Positions 2,322 through 20,248 of a stretch of 31,026 nt of DNA are shown in pieces. Made by a program: the position numbers and the translations under genes. The notes beneath the pieces were generated by a model, which had not been told where the DNA came from, did not search any database, and saw nothing but the letters and a program-made list of their open reading frames with translations. The first letter of the stretch is position 1; every line of letters starts with the position of its first letter. Where the stretch lies: positions 1 through 31,026 of IMG/VR virus record IMGVR_UViG_3300032086_001968. One strand, 5' to 3'. Source of the DNA: a virus.

Positions 2322-2708
2322 ATGGGTTTTAAGTTTGGCAAACGCTCGCTGGAGCGGCTGGAGGGCGTGCACGAGGATCTTGTTCGCGTAATGAAAACGG
2401 CGATTGACTGGAGCGACGACGTTGACTGGTGCATCATCGAAGGCTTGCGCACCGTCGAGCGGCAGAAGGAGCTCCTCGCCAAAGGCGCCTCGACTACCAT
2501 GCGCTCGCGGCACCTGACCGGCCACGCCATCGACATGGCGCCATACGTTGACGGGGCGATACGCTGGGACTGGCCGCTGTACCATAAGATCGCGCCCATC
2601 ATCAAGGAAGCCGCTGACCATGAGAAAGTCAAAATTGAGTGGGGCGGCGACTGGCGGAAGTTTCCAGACGGCCCGCACTGGCAATTGCCATGGAAGGATT
2701 ATCCATAG
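2322..2708 (+). CDS. Endolysin, M15-family zinc peptidase (L-Ala-D-Glu type)
   Basis: 128 residues from ATG 2322, preceded by GGAAGGAAG. It is a compact single-domain peptidase. The motif SRHLTGHAID (62-71) gives zinc ligands His64 and Asp71, Glu106 in IEWGGDW is the likely catalytic base, and His119 in GPHWQL is the third ligand. Members of this family (as in phage T5 endolysin) cut the peptide cross-bridge of Gram-negative peptidoglycan. There is no signal peptide, so export depends on the holins upstream. The 3' end overlaps the convergent HNH gene by 10 bp. Confidence 0.88.
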   Translation: MGFKFGKRSLERLEGVHEDLVRVMKTAIDWSDDVDWCIIEGLRTVERQKELLAKGASTTMRSRHLTGHAIDMAPYVDGAIRWDWPLYHKIAPIIKEAADHEKVKIEWGGDWRKFPDGPHWQLPWKDYP

Positions 2709-3049
2709 TGCTCGTTCCAGTGAAGGATGCGGTGACAGTTTGCGCATAAACACACGCACTTTGTCTCTGCTTCCTTGACCGCCGTGTTGTACTGCCCGCC
2801 CTTTACAAGTTGATAAACGGCACGGTTTTCTGGGTCATCTTTATTTATGTGATGAAAGTCTAGCGCAGCGGGGTGGCTGAAGCCGCAGTCGCTGCACGCC
2901 TGTTGAGCCTTCCACTCAATCCACTCTTTCTTTTGTCTCTTTCTGCGCTGGCGGTTCTTGGCGATAACTTTTTCTTTGTTCCTCTGATACCACTTTGAAC
3001 CGTACGCCTTAGCGTACGCAACGCGCTTTTCCTTGTCTTTATACGGCAA
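2699..3049 (-). CDS. HNH endonuclease-like protein
   Basis: Read from TTG 3049 the protein has 116 residues: a very basic N-terminal half (LPYKDKEKRVAYAKAYGSKWYQ then KNRQRRKRQKKE) and an HNH domain. The HNH signature is two CxxC zinc pairs (CSDC and CANC), DFHH between them, and CHRILHW at the end. The frame is open back to a GTG at 3085, but those codons lie inside a terminator hairpin (3052-3080). The TTG is preceded at good distance by GGGAAG and gives the usual family N-terminus (MPYKDKEK-like). Such genes are often homing or nicking endonucleases, or help packaging. It lies beyond the terminator of the accessory operon. Confidence 0.72.
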   Translation of the reverse strand: MPYKDKEKRVAYAKAYGSKWYQRNKEKVIAKNRQRRKRQKKEWIEWKAQQACSDCGFSHPAALDFHHINKDDPENRAVYQLVKGGQYNTAVKEAETKCVCLCANCHRILHWNEHYG

Positions 3050-3080
3050 AAAAACTTCCCACTTTGGCTGCGGGAAGTTT
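3048..3080 (-). terminator. Rho-independent terminator of the Tas-containing operon
   Basis: On the minus strand AAACTTCCC and GGGAAGTTT form a 9-bp stem with an 11-nt loop, followed by a run of seven T. It begins 19 bp after the stop of the 3099-3302 gene and would end transcription of the early/accessory operon. Its 3' arm also contains the GGGAAG that may serve the HNH gene. Confidence 0.8.
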
Positions 3081-3098
3081 ATCACTTTTTACAGATAC

Positions 3099-3581: not shown

Positions 3582-3811
3582 GGTCTTGCCCTCGGTCTAA
3601 TTACAGATGATACAACATCAGTTTGAACGCAGGTCATGTAAATGTCATTACCATAGAGTTTGACGATGTGGTCATAGATCGGGTCAGCTAAGCCCTGATC
3701 CATGACTTGCTGGCAATGGCTTTCTGAGGCGTAGACGATGCTTGCGACGGGGGCTGCGTTGTGCGCAGCCAATTCGTAGTCGATCATCAGGACGGTAAAA
3801 AACTCAATCAT
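3578..3811 (-). CDS. Small protein of unknown function, coupled to the Tas-like gene
   Basis: 77 residues from ATG 3811 (MIEFFTVLMIDYELAAHNAA). The start shares its A with the stop codon of the Tas-like gene (TAATG), and a GGAGG site lies inside that gene. It has a hydrophobic strand-like N-terminus, two cysteines (SHCQQV and MTCVQ), and a helix at 35-60. It may be a secreted or membrane-associated small protein, but no clear signal peptide is visible. No family is recognised. Tight coupling makes it worth testing as a partner of the Tas-like protein. Confidence 0.6.
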   Translation of the reverse strand: MIEFFTVLMIDYELAAHNAAPVASIVYASESHCQQVMDQGLADPIYDHIVKLYGNDIYMTCVQTDVVSSVIRPRARP

Positions 3812-4518
3812 TACGCCACCTCCTTCCATTCGTTATACAGATCGCGCACCAAGCGTTTTGTCATGTACCTCATCGCACGATTATGAGCATGCCCATCCGT
3901 CTTCACGCGCTCGCGCTCATACTCCTTGCGCTTGTCGTAAATCACGCGATACGGTCCCGCGTTTTCATCCTTACCTTGCGACTTCAATAAGCTGTCTCCA
4001 ATCGTCCAAAACACGGAATGGCGTGACGGGTTGTATCCGTGCACCAAAGCCATCTCCGCGTTACTGTGCTTGCGCTGACGCTCTCCATCAATCACGGCAA
4101 GCCCCGCGCGTTTGTAAATTCCGTCAAGCTCTTTTTCGTATGCCATGAAGTCGCCAACCTCTCCGACAATGCCGGCTAAGCCTAAGTGACCGAAGCCTTT
4201 CACCTTATCGACAAATGACGCGGCAGGTAGTTTCTTGGCCAAATCGATAAGCAGCTTTTCAAAACTACCTCGCGCTTCCAGCAACGGCTCGCGGGCGTTA
4301 AAGAACGGCTGCGTTGCTGCGATATAAACGAATGCAGCCTCACCCTTTTTTAGCGCAGCAAACAGCTTGTTTGCTTCCTTAATATCGCCATCGCAAAACC
4401 CTCTGCAAACTGCCTTGATCTGCAAGACCAGCTTACCCTCTGCCCGAACCATGTTCTGACGGTTGCGCCATGTGCGGTAAATTTGTGCAATCGTTTCATC
4501 TTCGTATCTTTTGTCCAT
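3811..4518 (-). CDS. Tas-like (TIGR-associated) protein: IS110-C-terminal/Nop-like RNA-binding protein without nuclease domain
   Basis: 235 residues. The C-terminal half resembles the second domain of IS110-family transposases. KVKGFGHLGLAGIVGEVGDF (105-124) is a helix-hairpin-helix-like segment, followed by YKRAGLAV, then HGYNPSRHSVFWTIGDSL (160-177) and a terminal basic helix with HAHNRAMRYMTKRLVRDL (210-227). The N-terminal 100 residues are helical. The DEDD/RuvC half of true IS110 transposases is absent, and no HNH is present. In the TIGR-Tas family, Nop-domain proteins related to box C/D snoRNP Nop5 and to IS110 bind short dual-spacer RNAs from an adjacent array; nuclease-less forms are called TasA. 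The nine-unit hairpin array ends 22 bp upstream of this start, on the same strand, with AAAAAAGGAG as ribosome binding site. Assignment is by pattern recall and context. The main alternative is an orphan IS110-derived phage protein. Confidence 0.8.
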   Translation of the reverse strand: MDKRYEDETIAQIYRTWRNRQNMVRAEGKLVLQIKAVCRGFCDGDIKEANKLFAALKKGEAAFVYIAATQPFFNAREPLLEARGSFEKLLIDLAKKLPAASFVDKVKGFGHLGLAGIVGEVGDFMAYEKELDGIYKRAGLAVIDGERQRKHSNAEMALVHGYNPSRHSVFWTIGDSLLKSQGKDENAGPYRVIYDKRKEYERERVKTDGHAHNRAMRYMTKRLVRDLYNEWKEVA

Positions 4519-4540
4519 TTCTTTCTCCTTTTTTAGTTGC

Positions 4541-4584
4541 GAGGCGCAATTGCAATGGCATTTCTGCGAAAGGGGGGTGGCCTC
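4541..4584 (-). repeat. Array unit 1 (last transcribed, next to the Tas-like gene)
   Basis: Stem GAGGC/GCCTC, interior 4546-4579. Spacer A is CCCCCCTTT and spacer B is TTGCAATTG; core GCAGAAATGC. The low-complexity spacer A suggests a decaying or inactive unit. Confidence 0.8.
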
Positions 4585-4590
4585 TGGTTA

Positions 4591-4636
4591 TTGGGCGAAA
4601 GCATCTTAACATTTCTGCGTTGGTCTATTGGCCCAA
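4591..4636 (-). repeat. Array unit 2
   Basis: Stem TTGGGC/GCCCAA, interior 4597-4630. Spacer A is ATAGACCAA and spacer B is AGATGCTTT; the core is GCAGAAATGT, with a G-U apical pair in the minus RNA. Confidence 0.85.
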
Positions 4637-4643
4637 ATTCGGT

Positions 4644-4689
4644 GGGGGCGTAGGTAGAGTGGCATTTCTGCAAGCTGCCGATGGCCCCC
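4644..4689 (-). repeat. Array unit 3
   Basis: Stem GGGGGC/GCCCCC, interior 4650-4683. Spacer A is TCGGCAGCT and spacer B is CTCTACCTA; core GCAGAAATGC. Confidence 0.85.
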
Positions 4690-4698
4690 TGTGATTGG

Positions 4699-4755
4699 TT
4701 GGGGAGAGCGAAGACATGTTGGCATTTCTGTGTACTGCTACTGGCTCTCGCCCAA
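4699..4755 (-). repeat. Array unit 4
   Basis: Stem TTGGG-c-GAGAGC/GCTCTCCCCAA: 11 pairs with one bulged C. Interior 4710-4743. Spacer A is GTAGCAGTA and spacer B is ACATGTCTT; the core is ACAGAAATGC, losing one apical pair. Confidence 0.85.
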
Positions 4756-4801
4756 TGGTGCGCCTCAAGGTTGGCATTTCTGCACCGTCTGCTTGGCACC
4801 A
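4756..4801 (-). repeat. Array unit 5
   Basis: Stem TGGTGC/GCACCA, interior 4762-4795. Spacer A is AGCAGACGG and spacer B is ACCTTGAGG; core GCAGAAATGC. It abuts unit 4 with no linker. Confidence 0.85.
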
Positions 4802-4813
4802 AATAAAACTGGT

Positions 4814-4859
4814 GGGGGCGTGCCCCTGAGGGCATTGCTGCGTGTTTCCGTTGGCCCCC
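4814..4859 (-). repeat. Array unit 6
   Basis: Stem GGGGGC/GCCCCC, interior 4820-4853. Spacer A is ACGGAAACA and spacer B is TCAGGGGCA. The core is GCAGCAATGC: the tetraloop changes from GAAA to GCAA but remains GNRA. Confidence 0.85.
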
Positions 4860-4870
4860 TGTGATTGGTT

Positions 4871-4922
4871 GGGAAGGGTGTAGCAAGGTTGGCATTTCTG
4901 CGATATCTACTTGACCCTTCCC
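4871..4922 (-). repeat. Array unit 7
   Basis: Stem GGGAAGGGT/ACCCTTCCC (9 bp), interior 4880-4913. Spacer A is AGTAGATAT and spacer B is ACCTTGCTA; core GCAGAAATGC. Spacer B shares its first six bases with that of unit 5. Confidence 0.85.
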
Positions 4923-4926
4923 TTGA

Positions 4927-4968
4927 GTGCGCACCTTGAGTAGCATTTCTGCGTAAGGATTGTGGCAC
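4927..4968 (-). repeat. Array unit 8
   Basis: Stem GTGC/GCAC (the shortest; one more G-U pair possible outside), interior 4931-4964. Spacer A is CAATCCTTA and spacer B is CTCAAGGTG; core GCAGAAATGC. Confidence 0.8.
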
Positions 4969-4980
4969 CATATGATTGGT

Positions 4981-5026
4981 TGGGGCGCGCTCTTCTTGGC
5001 ATTTCTGCGCAACACGTTTGGCCCCA
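4981..5026 (-). repeat. Array unit 9 (first transcribed)
   Basis: Stem TGGGGC/GCCCCA, 34-nt interior at 4987-5020. In RNA sense, spacer A is AACGTGTTG and spacer B is AGAAGAGCG, around core GCAGAAATGC. Confidence 0.85.
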
Positions 5027-5032
5027 TAAACA

Positions 5033-5572
5033 TCATGACACCATGACGTCTGTGTGAATTGCCTCTACATCTTCGATCTTCCAGACATCCCGAACAATCT
5101 TATCTTCGGGCATCTTCTTTAAAATCGCAGACAGAAACTTATGGTTACGGCGATGCGTGTTCGCCTTCAAACCTTCTTTGTGCACGACGTGCTCCAGATC
5201 ACTCTTCATCGCGTCGCCAAGGCAGATGCCCAAGTCAGGTAGTGCGAAGTAATCAAAGATATTTTTCGCATAGAGCGCCGCCGTGTTTTTGAGAGACACG
5301 CTTGGAACGGAATGCTCGCCCTTTTGCAAGAGTACCTGCTTGGAGATCTTCTCAGCTTGCTTTCTAAAGCTGGCACGATTTCCCCGCGACCTTGCACTTA
5401 CATCCTCAGACGCAATGCGCTGCAAGTAACGTGCGGTCGCCGCATCGCGTAATTCCTTGTCGTTGCGTAACATCTGAAGATATTTTTCCGCAGCTTCTTT
5501 CTGCGTTTTAGAGCCATCCCAAGCCTTATCAATGGCTTCCAAAACAATCGGGTTTCTCATTTGATAGGTCAT
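5033..5572 (-). CDS. Protein of unknown function upstream of the array
   Basis: 179 residues from ATG 5572 (MTYQMRNPIVLEAIDKAWDG). This start overlaps the stop of the preceding gene by four bases; a GTG at 5581 is in frame but less likely. The protein is basic and helical, with a KQAEKISKQVLLQKGEHS stretch and a C-terminal segment HRRNHKFLSAILKKMPEDK. No family is recognised. The stop is 7 bp before the first hairpin of the array, so gene and array share a transcript. A nucleic-acid-binding role is possible from charge alone. Confidence 0.65.
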   Translation of the reverse strand: MTYQMRNPIVLEAIDKAWDGSKTQKEAAEKYLQMLRNDKELRDAATARYLQRIASEDVSARSRGNRASFRKQAEKISKQVLLQKGEHSVPSVSLKNTAALYAKNIFDYFALPDLGICLGDAMKSDLEHVVHKEGLKANTHRRNHKFLSAILKKMPEDKIVRDVWKIEDVEAIHTDVMVS

Positions 5573-5664
5573 AGCCACCACCCCGCGCTGATACCTGTTA
5601 CAAAAACCATTGCCATGAGTATGACGATGCCGAAGATGATCCAGTCTTGCTTATCGATATTCAT
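5569..5664 (-). CDS. Single-span membrane micropeptide
   Basis: 31 residues, MNIDKQDWIIFGIVILMAMV then FVTGISAGWWL, essentially one transmembrane helix. The start is backed by a very strong GGAGGAGGGC site and a four-base overlap with the preceding stop (ATGA); the stop overlaps the next start in the same way. The function is unknown. Such peptides in early phage operons are often host-membrane effectors. Confidence 0.6.
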   Translation of the reverse strand: MNIDKQDWIIFGIVILMAMVFVTGISAGWWL

Positions 5665-15698: not shown

Positions 15699-16943
15699 CT
15701 ATGCGGCTTCCGTCCATGTTTCCGCACTTACCGTTTGATCAGTCCAAATCTCCGACCCTGTTGTTTGATCGGTCCAAGTCTCAGCCGTGAGCGGTTGCTC
15801 TTCCCACACAAAGCGCCCCAACTCTACCTGCGTACTGCTTGTAATATCTAGCAGGGTTATATTGTGTATCTGGGTAATATTAGCCAGATCCACAGTTGAA
15901 GCGCCAGTTGTAATTGATGTCCCTGCCAAAACTACGTTTACAGTAATTGTGGATGCATCAACCTGTGCAGCGCCCGTAGTAATGTCGGTTGATGTCAGAG
16001 CAACATTTTCAACGCAAGTTGAGTTATCAACAGAAACAGAAACATTTATTTGATCTAAAGAAAGATTGTGAACTTGAGTAATTGCAGCTAAATCAAGAGT
16101 GGCGCCAACGCTAATTTGATCTGAGCTTAAATTGTGGTCCTGTGAGATAGAAGAATTATCAACAGAAGATACGCAAGAAATTTCGGTAAGTGTAAAGTTT
16201 TCAGTTAATGCACTACTGTCAACAATTACAGTATCAACAGTAACATCACGATAGCTAGGATAAATAAAGTTACCCATCGCATTGCCGTGAACAGTACAAT
16301 AATATTTAAGAGTGTCAGGAGCATCTAAAGGCACAGCAAATGTAACCGTAGCACCTGATGTTCCTTCAGTGCCGGATACCGTTACACCAGTAGTATACGG
16401 ATTATCATTTTCATCTCTAAATCTAAACGGATGACCGCTGTTGCTTGAATGTGAAACATCAAACACATAAGTTGTGCCGCGTTGGATCATCCACGGCAAA
16501 TTGCTTTCTTGTAAAATTGGCCTATAATCACCGCCAAGATGCGCTGGACCTAAATAAAATACATTTGAGCCAGATTGATCTAATACTTGAACAGACCAAT
16601 CTTCAGATGCTGGATGCAACGCATCATTTTCAGCGCAAGTAGATGTATCAACAGTTGCTGAAACAGATATACTTGTTCCCGTTAAAGCGTGTGGATCAGT
16701 CGCAACAATCGTTGCATCATCAACAGTAACTGAAACATTTATAGGGTCTAAGCCATAAGCTAACACTTGCGTAAGCGTTGCGTCATCAACAGTTACAGAG
16801 CAAGTAATTGCATCCAAGCCATAAGAAACAGCGCCTGCGCCAGCGACATATGTAAAACTTGCTAAACTATTATTTTTTGCAAACGAATAATTAGAAAGCT
16901 CTAAAAGCTCTGGGTTTCTTAAAAGTTTTTCTACATTATCCAT
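15699..16943 (-). CDS. Repeat-containing fibre protein with embedded cupredoxin-like domain
   Basis: 414 residues. About nine beta repeats of roughly 22 residues flank a central domain: residues 43-110 hold the first ones (INVSVTVDDATI) and 235-380 the others (INVSVSVDNSTCVEN, TDITTGAAQVDASTITVN). Residues 115-230 look like a cupredoxin: His171 in GHPFRFRDE and the loop C216-T-V-H219-G-N-A-M223 match type-1 copper ligands (His, Cys, His, Met). The C-terminus repeats an ETWTDQT phrase three times. It is likely part of the host-recognition apparatus. DNA here is more AT-rich than in the head genes. Confidence 0.65.
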   Translation of the reverse strand: MDNVEKLLRNPELLELSNYSFAKNNSLASFTYVAGAGAVSYGLDAITCSVTVDDATLTQVLAYGLDPINVSVTVDDATIVATDPHALTGTSISVSATVDTSTCAENDALHPASEDWSVQVLDQSGSNVFYLGPAHLGGDYRPILQESNLPWMIQRGTTYVFDVSHSSNSGHPFRFRDENDNPYTTGVTVSGTEGTSGATVTFAVPLDAPDTLKYYCTVHGNAMGNFIYPSYRDVTVDTVIVDSSALTENFTLTEISCVSSVDNSSISQDHNLSSDQISVGATLDLAAITQVHNLSLDQINVSVSVDNSTCVENVALTSTDITTGAAQVDASTITVNVVLAGTSITTGASTVDLANITQIHNITLLDITSSTQVELGRFVWEEQPLTAETWTDQTTGSEIWTDQTVSAETWTEAA

Positions 16944-17215
16944 CAGTCATCTATTGCATCAGAAAATTGTGTTTTTGCTGCTGCATAACATTGAGCAATA
17001 ACATCATCCGATGAACTCCAATCAGGAATAATACTGCGCATAAAATAAGACGCATAAGAAGATGCATAATCAGAAGCAGCATCCTTTGATGGATAGAACA
17101 TCAACATATATTCCATTTCATTTTTATTAATAATGTTGATATTTTCTATGCGAACATATTGATCAGAAAAGTTCTGATTAGCTTCTGGGTTTACATAATC
17201 CATTATCAAAGCCAT
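16943..17215 (-). CDS. Small accessory protein of the fibre module
   Basis: 90 residues, MALIMDYVNPEANQNFSDQY at the start. A beta hairpin-like segment (YVRIENINIINKNEMEYMLM) is followed by a helix with Ser/Tyr repeats (DAASDYASSYASYFMRS). Both its start and its stop share a base with the flanking genes. The function is unknown; it could be a chaperone or connector for the large fibre next to it. Confidence 0.6.
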   Translation of the reverse strand: MALIMDYVNPEANQNFSDQYVRIENINIINKNEMEYMLMFYPSKDAASDYASSYASYFMRSIIPDWSSSDDVIAQCYAAAKTQFSDAIDD

Positions 17216-19248
17216 TAGCTCACCTCCACATCATCAATCCAGTAATTTTGATTAGACCCATTCCATATTGCTTTAAAAGCACATCTGGCAAAACCATCTT
17301 GAGCCGCAGAAAAAGTTACAGAAACAGCCTCCCAAGCATTATAAGCAGAAGATGTAAATTCCGTCCTCGAAATAAAAGCACCGTCTGAATTAAAAATATC
17401 AAACCAAGCATCGCCTGTTGCCATTGTGCTTCGGTTTGTCCGCAAATAACCTGTAAACGTATAAGAAGTTCCACTCAAAACAGGAATATATATTGGATAC
17501 ATACTGTGCGATCTATTTGGATCACCCTTTGGCGCCTGAGTATGATAACTAGAAGCATAATTATCTAATTGCCATTTTAAACTTTTACCTGTTGTTCTTA
17601 CTGTTCCAGTATCGGGCACTAAATAAGGAAAATACCTTGCTTGCCTATTATATGCAGTCTGCAAGGAGGCAGCTTGAGGCGTAATCATAATAGGTGTATC
17701 AGTAAACTCATATATAGTTGCATGATCATTGTTTTGCGTAGGAAATCTATAATCAGAACTAAGAGTGGTTGGACGAGCTATTGGTACTTTTACAACATAT
17801 GGCTGAGATGCTTCTCTTAAATTTTGTGTAGAGATATTTAAATATCTTGTAGTTGTTTGATAATTGAATGCATAAGGACGTAGTGTTGAGTTTGTTGCGG
17901 TAAAACCAGTTGGCAAAGGAAAGTCACTTGTTAAAGCCATTTCATGTCCACTTGGTTTAGTAAGAGAATAAGATGAACCCTCTTCCATAGTTCCATGCCA
18001 ATTTACAGTTGTATTATTATTGTTATTTCCATCTTCAACTTTAAAATTTGTGTATGTTATTGATACTGTTCCAGTAATATCATAAGCAAGGTAAAGCTCT
18101 TGGCACCCCCCTGACGAAGATTGGTGATGCACTGGTCCTTGATCAATAGTAAGATTATGACAATTGCTTATTGTAAATAATTTAGCTGGACAAAACCGCG
18201 TCCATAGCTCTCCAACAGTTATATTTGCATTGTTATTTCTACCATTTAAGTAATATCCTCGCTCCCCATTTATTGGGCCATTTTGATACGAATAAACATA
18301 ATCAAAGTTTGCAGTTAATGTTATTCTATCTGTTGTAAAGCTGCTATCGTTGTTCCAAAGTTGATCATTTTTTAACGTATATCTAAAAAAGTTTAATGGG
18401 TTATACATTATTAAATTAGTAATATCTATGTTTATATTTTCATATGGTGCGCAAAAATATGGGGATGATGAAAGACTGCCCCCCAACCAAAGCTGTCTAA
18501 GTTTTAAAGTTTTTAAAGGCAGACCATAAGTATTAAGGTTTGCAGTAGAAGATGAATTATTTGTAGCTAAAATTATTGTATTGGGACAGTCTAATTCTGT
18601 ATAGTTTTCTGTAGACCCAGTTGGGTATAACCCCGAACTGCTTGCATATTCAGAAGTTGCCCCTCCAGAATTAAGATAAGTAGTTCCATTGCCAGTTGTC
18701 TGTGAGTTACAGATACTTACTGCCGTTCCGTCAGTGGTTTGAGCGGTTTCAGAGGTCCAACCGTCAGTTGTAGGAATGTAGTAATTGCGACTTCCAGCCC
18801 CAATATAAAGAATATTAGAACTATTAGATGGTCCACTAAAAATAGTCATGTCAACTTTTTGGACTGTAAATTCATAATCTGTGCCAGAAACATATTGAGT
18901 AGCTCTAACTGGAACAGGAATATAATTATTTGAAGCGCCAGTTAAAACGCCGCCAGAAACGCTAGAGTTTATTTTCCAAAAAGTACCATAGTCAGGAAAG
19001 TACAAAACATCATATAAACTATATGTTAAATTTTGAGTTCCCACTACTGTTAGCTGATTTCTTTGATTACCATTTGTGATTTTAACAGTGTCAGTCCCAC
19101 TTTCTAAAATGCTGGAAATTGTTCTTGCTTTTACACGACAAACATCACCGTCAACCCACGTACCATTTTCATTCCAGCCATACGGATCAGCGTATGTGCC
19201 AGTTGCACCACTGGTTGAAATAAAATGATCTTTCCACTTGATAGCCAT
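17215..19248 (-). CDS. Large host-recognition (tail fibre/spike) protein
   Basis: 677 residues, Asn/Ser/Thr/Tyr-rich and almost wholly beta. The first 45 residues (MAIKWKDHFISTSGATGTYA, then YGWNENGTWVDGDVCR) look like a capping/attachment domain. The centre has short strands and Asn ladders suited to a right-handed beta helix. The last 120 residues (TFTGYLRTNRSTMATGDAWF, ending YWIDDVEVS) resemble a carbohydrate-binding jelly roll. Its AT-rich DNA contrasts with the neighbouring head genes, suggesting recent exchange. Receptor binding is inferred. Confidence 0.65.
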   Translation of the reverse strand: MAIKWKDHFISTSGATGTYADPYGWNENGTWVDGDVCRVKARTISSILESGTDTVKITNGNQRNQLTVVGTQNLTYSLYDVLYFPDYGTFWKINSSVSGGVLTGASNNYIPVPVRATQYVSGTDYEFTVQKVDMTIFSGPSNSSNILYIGAGSRNYYIPTTDGWTSETAQTTDGTAVSICNSQTTGNGTTYLNSGGATSEYASSSGLYPTGSTENYTELDCPNTIILATNNSSSTANLNTYGLPLKTLKLRQLWLGGSLSSSPYFCAPYENINIDITNLIMYNPLNFFRYTLKNDQLWNNDSSFTTDRITLTANFDYVYSYQNGPINGERGYYLNGRNNNANITVGELWTRFCPAKLFTISNCHNLTIDQGPVHHQSSSGGCQELYLAYDITGTVSITYTNFKVEDGNNNNNTTVNWHGTMEEGSSYSLTKPSGHEMALTSDFPLPTGFTATNSTLRPYAFNYQTTTRYLNISTQNLREASQPYVVKVPIARPTTLSSDYRFPTQNNDHATIYEFTDTPIMITPQAASLQTAYNRQARYFPYLVPDTGTVRTTGKSLKWQLDNYASSYHTQAPKGDPNRSHSMYPIYIPVLSGTSYTFTGYLRTNRSTMATGDAWFDIFNSDGAFISRTEFTSSAYNAWEAVSVTFSAAQDGFARCAFKAIWNGSNQNYWIDDVEVS

Positions 19249-19256
19249 AGTAAATA

Positions 19257-19628
19257 CTAGCTCGGATCAGCTAACTCAATATCAACCGCGGTTAAGCTGA
19301 ATGTATTTCCAGATGTTACTGACTGACTTGAGGATAATGCTCCCGTAATAAGCAAACGACTGTTTACAGTATCAGATACTGCATAGTGAGTAGCCGTGCC
19401 TGTTGACGTTACGCTGCCACCTGATACCGCTGGAACAGTAATCTTTCTTCCAGACGTATCACCGTTAGTTGGACCCGTAAGAGTAACACTTGTTTTATTG
19501 CCGAGCGAGTTTGTAGATGTTGCGGCAGTATACGTCGAAGGCTCTGACGAACAAATATCAACGCGATTTGCCTCAGATACAACGGTGCTCAAGCCGTTGT
19601 CATATACTCTGTCATTTAGTGTTGCCAT
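19257..19628 (-). CDS. Small structural protein (fibre base or decoration type)
   Basis: 123 residues, MATLNDRVYDNGLSTVVSEA at the start. It is beta-rich with many Thr and Ser, and ends SGNTFSLTAVDIELADPS. I have seen this type beside adaptor genes in many phages as a minor virion protein; its role is not settled. It sits between the second adaptor and the large fibre. Confidence 0.6.
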   Translation of the reverse strand: MATLNDRVYDNGLSTVVSEANRVDICSSEPSTYTAATSTNSLGNKTSVTLTGPTNGDTSGRKITVPAVSGGSVTSTGTATHYAVSDTVNSRLLITGALSSSQSVTSGNTFSLTAVDIELADPS

Positions 19629-19630
19629 CG

Positions 19631-20248
19631 TTAATAGCTCCTTATTTTCACACGATGGCCAGAGCCACCAAATTTTGCCTTATCGCTGTCTGCATTAATA
19701 CCATTAATTGACTTTTCATACAACGCAGACCAAACTTGCATTCTGGCGTCCTCGCCCAAGTACGGCGCGCTATGCATAAGCGTACCGTACAGATAGGCGT
19801 CTGGAAAGTATGTTAGCAGCCAGTTGCTTGTGTTTACGCTATCTAACGGAATAATTTTTGAATAATACACCATTTCCAAGGTATATGTTGTATCCGGCGT
19901 GGGATACACCTCAATCGTACCATCTGTTAAAGCGTAATATTTTGGACGCGCGGCAGTGTTTAATCCGCGCATCCGTTTGTCCATCATCTCGCCCTGACTG
20001 ACTAACTCCATGCGGTGTGTATTGCCGCTCGTAATGCTGAGCCTGATCGGCTCGTAAAAGTCATCCGGCAAAACACTATACTGCGTGTCGAGCTCCGCTG
20101 TGCTGCGCTTTTCCATGCGCCAATGGCGCACGCGGCGCGACATGTCTGCCTCTGCCAAGTCAATGAACGTGTCAACAGTTTGCTCTGCCGACATGTTATT
20201 TAAGAAGTTTATAACTTGGTCTTTTAATTCTGAATAAGTAGACGGCAT
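19631..20248 (-). CDS. Head-tail adaptor protein, copy 2 (SU10-adaptor-like)
   Basis: 205 residues. MPSTYSELKDQVINFLNNMS and FIDLAEADMSRRVRHWRME form the N-terminal helical part; then LPDDFYEPIRLSI, a beta segment (IEVYPTPDTTYTLEMVYYSK) and NWLLTYFPDAYLYGTLMHSA follow. This pattern is the podoviral adaptor that attaches beneath the portal and joins it to the tail. The gene immediately upstream has the same layout, so the two are paralogues. Confidence 0.75.
   Translation of the reverse strand: MPSTYSELKDQVINFLNNMSAEQTVDTFIDLAEADMSRRVRHWRMEKRSTAELDTQYSVLPDDFYEPIRLSITSGNTHRMELVSQGEMMDKRMRGLNTAARPKYYALTDGTIEVYPTPDTTYTLEMVYYSKIIPLDSVNTSNWLLTYFPDAYLYGTLMHSAPYLGEDARMQVWSALYEKSINGINADSDKAKFGGSGHRVKIRSY

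Follow-up and report, generated by a model that had tools for sequence, protein, structure and literature searches.

A stem-loop TIGR array with fast paired-spacer turnover next to a putative tasA gene in a tailed phage

What do nine tandem stem-loop units encode when they stand between two genes of a phage operon? The question is raised by a 31,026-nucleotide (nt) stretch of viral DNA (IMG/VR record IMGVR_UViG_3300032086_001968, positions 1 to 31,026; hereafter, the window), in which a sequence-only reading had proposed an array of tandem interspaced guide RNAs (TIGR) upstream of a Tas-like gene. We found that both the observation and this interpretation hold. Nine tandem units of shared architecture lie on the minus strand, exactly at 5026–4541, and directly precede tasA, as the units of related loci also do; the Tas homology of the adjoining protein, the covarying box C/D pairs and the variable spacers all support a guide-RNA array. 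The locus belongs to the stem-loop subtype with TasA. We consider it very likely that a tailed marine phage here carries a TIGR-TasA system, which operates through the guide mechanism proposed below and changes its spacers by cassette replacement.

Each unit begins with a stem arm of 4–8 nt, followed by box C (YCA), a 9-nt spacer A and box D (CG); the second half consists of the loop repeat CAG[A/C]AATG, a further box C (CCA), a 9-nt spacer B, a further box D (CG) and the closing stem arm. Together with a flanking G and C, the loop repeat forms a three-pair stem with a GNRA tetraloop cap, and the predicted GNRA-capped core was recovered as GCA-GNRA-UGC (GAAA or GCAA) in most units. The two 9-nt variable segments per unit were present in all nine units of the window. 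The two arms of the stem enclose exactly 36 nt (3+9+2+8+3+9+2), which is the 34 nt of the sequence-only reading once the box C–box D pair is counted as stem. The units follow each other at 51–60 nt, and the 3' end of the array lies 22 nt ahead of the tasA ATG, with a ribosome-binding site (AAGGAG) between the array and the start codon, while the array starts just past a gene for a protein of 182 amino acids (aa). An Rfam search of the window returned no match. As a separate observation, the spacers B of units 2 and 5 are mutually reverse-complementary with a one-base shift (CTCAAGGT in common), and these two might address one site from both strands.

Are the stems real as RNA structures? We aligned 44 diverse units without gaps, chosen by a finder that requires at least three stem pairs. 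Standard pairs filled 97.5% of the pair cells, and the covariation score was 0.513 compared with 0.218 ± 0.016 in shuffles (0 of 500 reached it) and at most 0.171 in slid alignments. Compensatory double changes were seen in seven of the nine pairs, and RNAalifold, unaided, gave the same structure as the proposed unit fold. The stems therefore survived the covariance test. Furthermore, among 250 distinct 52-nt segments chosen by the CAG[AC]AATG anchor alone, 94% had a closing stem of at least 4 base pairs (bp) in the exact register. Exchanging the 3' arms among units lowered this share to 34%, and most slid registers gave no more than 7%, although G/C runs raised the +1 register to 42%. In loci totalling 476 kb, the unit finder returned 447 units inside arrays and one weak same-strand match outside them.

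The same picture emerged across 301 distinct units, all with 9+9 nt spacers and YCA and CG boxes. In the outer box pair, base 1 of box C faces base 2 of box D, as C-G in 178 units, U-A in 60 and U-G in 51, and the loop box pair was G-C in 229, A-U in 28 and G-U in 28; both box C/D pairs form with double changes, and they correspond to those of the TasR structure (PMC12045711). Stem pairs 2–5 alternate among G-C, A-U and U-A and are 80–100% paired, and in a rare core variant (CCGAAAGG) a compensatory change preserves the loop stem. On the other hand, the spacers carry less than 0.2 bit of information per column, compared with up to 2 bits in the scaffold, and the spacer columns are not conserved in homologous phages, while the stems and boxes are.

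The 235-aa protein encoded next to the array is, as judged from its sequence, a Tas homologue of the nuclease-less TasA type. A 10-sequence profile searched against the PDB matched TasR (9mty, E = 1.4e-14, residues 60–232 of the 235), an entry that we read, from its name and length, as the TasR of the discovery paper, as well as TasH (E = 0.0026), the latter as 21kl and seven further entries. The TasR alignment starts at residue 60 of the 235-aa protein compared with residue 131 of TasR; therefore, the RuvC domain appears to be absent and the protein is identified as a putative TasA. Pfam gave no nuclease match and no fitting model for it. An HNH endonuclease gene (2699–3085, phrog_3106) lies downstream on the same strand as tasA and is a possible stand-alone nuclease.

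Table 1. Coordinates of the array, its units and the two adjoining genes in the window.
Feature	Position	Strand	Spacer A	Spacer B	Remarks
TIGR stem-loop array	4541..5026	(-)			nine units
Unit 1	4981..5026	(-)	AACGTGTTG	AGAAGAGCG	5-bp stem
Unit 2	4926..4969	(-)	CAATCCTTA	CTCAAGGTG	
Unit 3	4871..4922	(-)	AGTAGATAT	ACCTTGCTA	8-bp stem
Unit 4	4814..4859	(-)	ACGGAAACA	TCAGGGGCA	loop GCAA
Unit 5	4756..4801	(-)	AGCAGACGG	ACCTTGAGG	
Unit 6	4704..4749	(-)	GTAGCAGTA	ACATGTCTT	loop-side box D = CA
Unit 7	4644..4689	(-)	TCGGCAGCT	CTCTACCTA	
Unit 8	4591..4636	(-)	ATAGACCAA	AGATGCTTT	
Unit 9	4541..4584	(-)	CCCCCCTTT	TTGCAATTG	4-bp stem
tasA	3811..4518	(-)			predicted 235-aa Nop-type Tas protein without nuclease domain; profile matches TasR, TasH; phrog_4285 1.4e-15
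182-aa gene	5033..5581	(-)			at 5' edge of array, candidate partner; adjoins array in 48 related loci

How stable are the spacers between related phages? With the 235-aa protein as query, a scan of IMG/VR returned 53 loci, and the repeat core was in the same place in every locus with enough upstream sequence. These loci hold 258 distinct spacer pairs, and spacer turnover becomes measurable because the same operon slot is filled by dozens of allelic arrays. One locus (L001, IMGVR_UViG_3300032087_003792) is identical to the window in tasA, the upstream gene and all nine units over the region compared. Two others (L002 and L003) have no spacer in common with the window, despite identities of about 95% in tasA and 95–96% in the upstream gene, and in the close relatives L049 and L051, unit 3 is the only spacer pair of the window that is retained (one mismatch). 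L028 and L029, 99.6% identical in tasA, are alike at 6 of the 18 spacer positions of the last unit. Between loci with 94–97% tasA identity, the last unit showed a scaffold identity of 0.96 and a spacer identity of 0.50; at 70–80% tasA identity, the values were 0.90 and 0.25 (random). The spacers turn over much faster than the scaffold and flanks, which is a new finding here. Furthermore, both spacers were replaced in 349 of 432 distinct homologous pairs, and one was kept (at least 8 of 9 positions) with the other replaced in 13; that A and B mostly change together is consistent with both spacers of a unit addressing a single target.

Could whole units be exchanged between phages? In one clade (L025–L042), alleles f34 and f21 at position 51 were each found with alleles f23 and f24 at position 157, and further combinations also occurred. 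The allele families were built by single linkage at six or fewer mismatches, such that a few may be over-merged, while these four look clean by eye. This reassortment of unit alleles at fixed positions, also new here, suggests cassette recombination, and in-place mutation alone is insufficient, as the alternative alleles of a unit reappear in other loci at an unchanged position. It is possible, with the balance about even in our judgement, that co-circulating phages diversify their TIGR arrays by recombination, exchanging whole dual-spacer cassettes at fixed positions, and that a phage population thereby holds a common repertoire of paired guides that reassorts without any adaptation proteins. 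If true, this exchange would account for the maintenance and renewal of TIGR arrays; the discovery paper states natural targets, spacer origin and array renewal as unknown (PMC12045711).

In the same clade, one spacer pair (family CGTGTTGAG|CTCTACTGG), at position about 103 from tasA, is nearly invariant, being shared by 14 of 16 loci. Its near-fixation amid reassorted neighbours suggests a stable target.

We infer the following course of events. The array would be transcribed together with its operon, and a TasA dimer would bind each stem-closed unit via its two box C/D pairs. The unit would then be cut into a guide RNA whose two 9-nt spacers would pair with opposite strands of an 18-bp target, spacer A with one and spacer B with the other. 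TasA would bind this target without cutting, and the binding would most likely block transcription or replication of DNA of a competitor or the host; this target class is proposed because of the fast turnover and the absence of self-targeting. Spacer pairs would be swapped as cassettes within the conserved scaffold, mainly via recombination among co-circulating phages.

What, then, might the guides recognize? According to the published TIGR rule, the two spacers of a unit recognize opposite strands side by side; read on one strand, a target composite is thus the reverse complement of A followed by B, or B followed by the reverse complement of A. Among conserved composites, CARTYTTGTCCTTGTGAC had one match among viruses and 15, scattered, among bacteria or archaea, and TGGTAACAAATCTATGAT had 2, none of them convincing, and GGGCCATGATTCATGGTT had no match in the scan. 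Short BLAST queries against phages and plasmids found nothing, a weak negative, as an 18-mer may fall below the E-value limit.

Several points weigh against the guide mechanism and cassette exchange. Over about 1 Mb of related contigs, close composite matches were as numerous as in shuffled-pairing controls, self-targeting was not found (the composites of each phage matched its own contig no better than foreign composites did), and pattern scans of viral and bacterial collections gave scattered, chance-like matches. The AlphaFold model of TasA was poor (predicted local distance difference test, pLDDT, 60), had no significant match in a fold search and was not used. Furthermore, metagenome assemblies can be chimeric and could produce some of the mosaics, and in-place mutation may lie behind part of the turnover.

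Could the units instead be RNA or DNA hairpins that bind a protein or act in regulation, with neutral loops and no guiding function? Palindromic units between two genes would suit such a role, as would the negative target searches in related contigs and the phage's own genome. It is nonetheless very unlikely, as a Tas homologue adjoins the array, the box C/D pairs covary at the outer and loop positions, spacer length is fixed at 9 nt over hundreds of units, and spacers A and B are replaced together. Just as improbable is a TIGR-TasA ribonucleoprotein directed at the phage's own genome for regulation or packaging: a nuclease-less TasA would make self-binding tolerable, but the spacers change too fast for a fixed self-target and, as noted, a phage's contig is matched by its own composites no better than by those of other phages.

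Lower still is the probability of an IS110-like element with bridge RNAs. The label of phrog_4285 is "transposase", TasR itself was deposited under an IS116/IS110/IS902 name, and IS110 transposases share a related Nop-type RNA-binding domain with the protein here. However, just 59 residues precede the matched region, which leaves no DEDD catalytic domain; many tandem units are present instead of one two-loop bridge RNA; and the array has a fixed phage-operon position in all clades. A protein-coding repeat has a negligible probability: a 167-codon open reading frame (4533–5036) spans the window array, but, as the sequence-only reading had noted, the unit spacing keeps no reading-frame phase, any open frame through the array exists in just 12 of 50 loci, a cross-locus comparison that refutes coding, and the stems covary at the RNA level.

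Separately, we considered a codon reading of the spacers, prompted by related composites that differ solely at third codon positions (NTDYKN, LVDTMR and IYWDEA). It was rejected: same-phase differences over all clusters numbered 64 of 240 (27%), below chance (about 29%), and the three patterns match many unrelated genes.

The genes around the TIGR-TasA locus tell more about its carrier. Searches with the upstream 182-aa protein found nothing in Pfam or the PDB and nothing convincing in PHROG, and its AlphaFold model was of low confidence, with an uninformative fold search. It diverges far faster between clades than TasA (about 40% compared with 85% identity; L012, L017, L018 and L023). Portal and capsid genes match PHROG head proteins, and the relatives of the portal include phages of Sinorhizobium, Pelagibacter and Sulfitobacter; therefore, the carrier is an ordinary tailed phage. 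A marine origin appears probable from the portal relatives and the IMG sample numbers. No close tasA was found in the bacterial genomes searched. Elsewhere in the window (16001–20000), the guanine-plus-cytosine (GC) content falls from about 51% to 37–39% over the genes at 15699–16943 and 17215–19248, the latter without a PHROG match, which suggests a recently acquired tail or receptor-binding module.

How does this locus compare with known TIGR systems? With the classical dual-repeat arrays (FpTIGR TasA, TaTIGR TasR and SpTIGR TasH), it shares short paired spacers (9 nt in Fp and Ta), box C/D pairs, a 36-nt unit and a Nop-type protein. On the other hand, the edge position here is a variable stem rather than a conserved edge repeat, the units are set 51–60 nt apart with stems and linkers, and, compared with TaTIGR TasR and SpTIGR TasH, the protein appears to have no RuvC or HNH domain. 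We also found an unannotated array of the classical dual-repeat type in Microcystis phage Mvi-JY20 (PP438412.1, L056:3485-3840), downstream of a tas-like gene, with edge ATGCGAGCC, loop ACGAAACCC and mostly 9-nt spacers.

Unlike these, the array of the window is a stem-loop form with a conserved loop repeat. Published stem-loop arrays with TasA, such as the Peromyscus gut locus with 13 units (Faure et al. 2025, PMC12045711), likewise have palindromic, variable closing stems in place of edge repeats and an adjoining nuclease-less TasA. In contrast to them, the present array keeps both the length and the sequence of its loop repeat (CAG[A/C]AATG), a form mentioned as a possible intermediate (PMC12045711), has an inner span of exactly 36 nt, and is a single compact array in a fixed phage operon slot, for which dozens of allelic arrays are available. 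The inner span equals the published length of the mature TIGR RNA, or tigRNA (PMC12045711), and the units here may be processed to about that size.

The same array type occurs, unannotated, in Rhizobium phage RHph_X2_25 of Sinorhizobium americanum (MW960032.1, L055:1738-3804), on both sides of a tas gene that is annotated as hypothetical. Under strict criteria, a scan found four matches in register, and further units were recognised by eye. Two of the four, with CCA/CG boxes, fall within the first part of the tas gene as annotated, the true start of which is probably later, and one, overlapping another unit, is probably a chance match. Searches for self-targets in RHph_X2_25 and Mvi-JY20 found none, and the RHph_X2_25 spacers had no match in parts of five other rhizobial phages. 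The upstream protein of RHph_X2_25 is a colinear but weak match to the 182-aa protein (probability 6.5%, E = 0.0057). Its TasA is about 37–43% identical to that of the window, and the two loci share stem-loop units, CCA/CG boxes and 9-nt spacers. On the other hand, the RHph_X2_25 locus is GC-rich, with units on both sides of tasA and variable loop sequences, and this phage, from cultured Sinorhizobium, carries integrase and repressor genes. The TIGR-Tas family described here is thereby linked to a cultured Sinorhizobium phage with the same array type, whose targets and function are open to bench tests.
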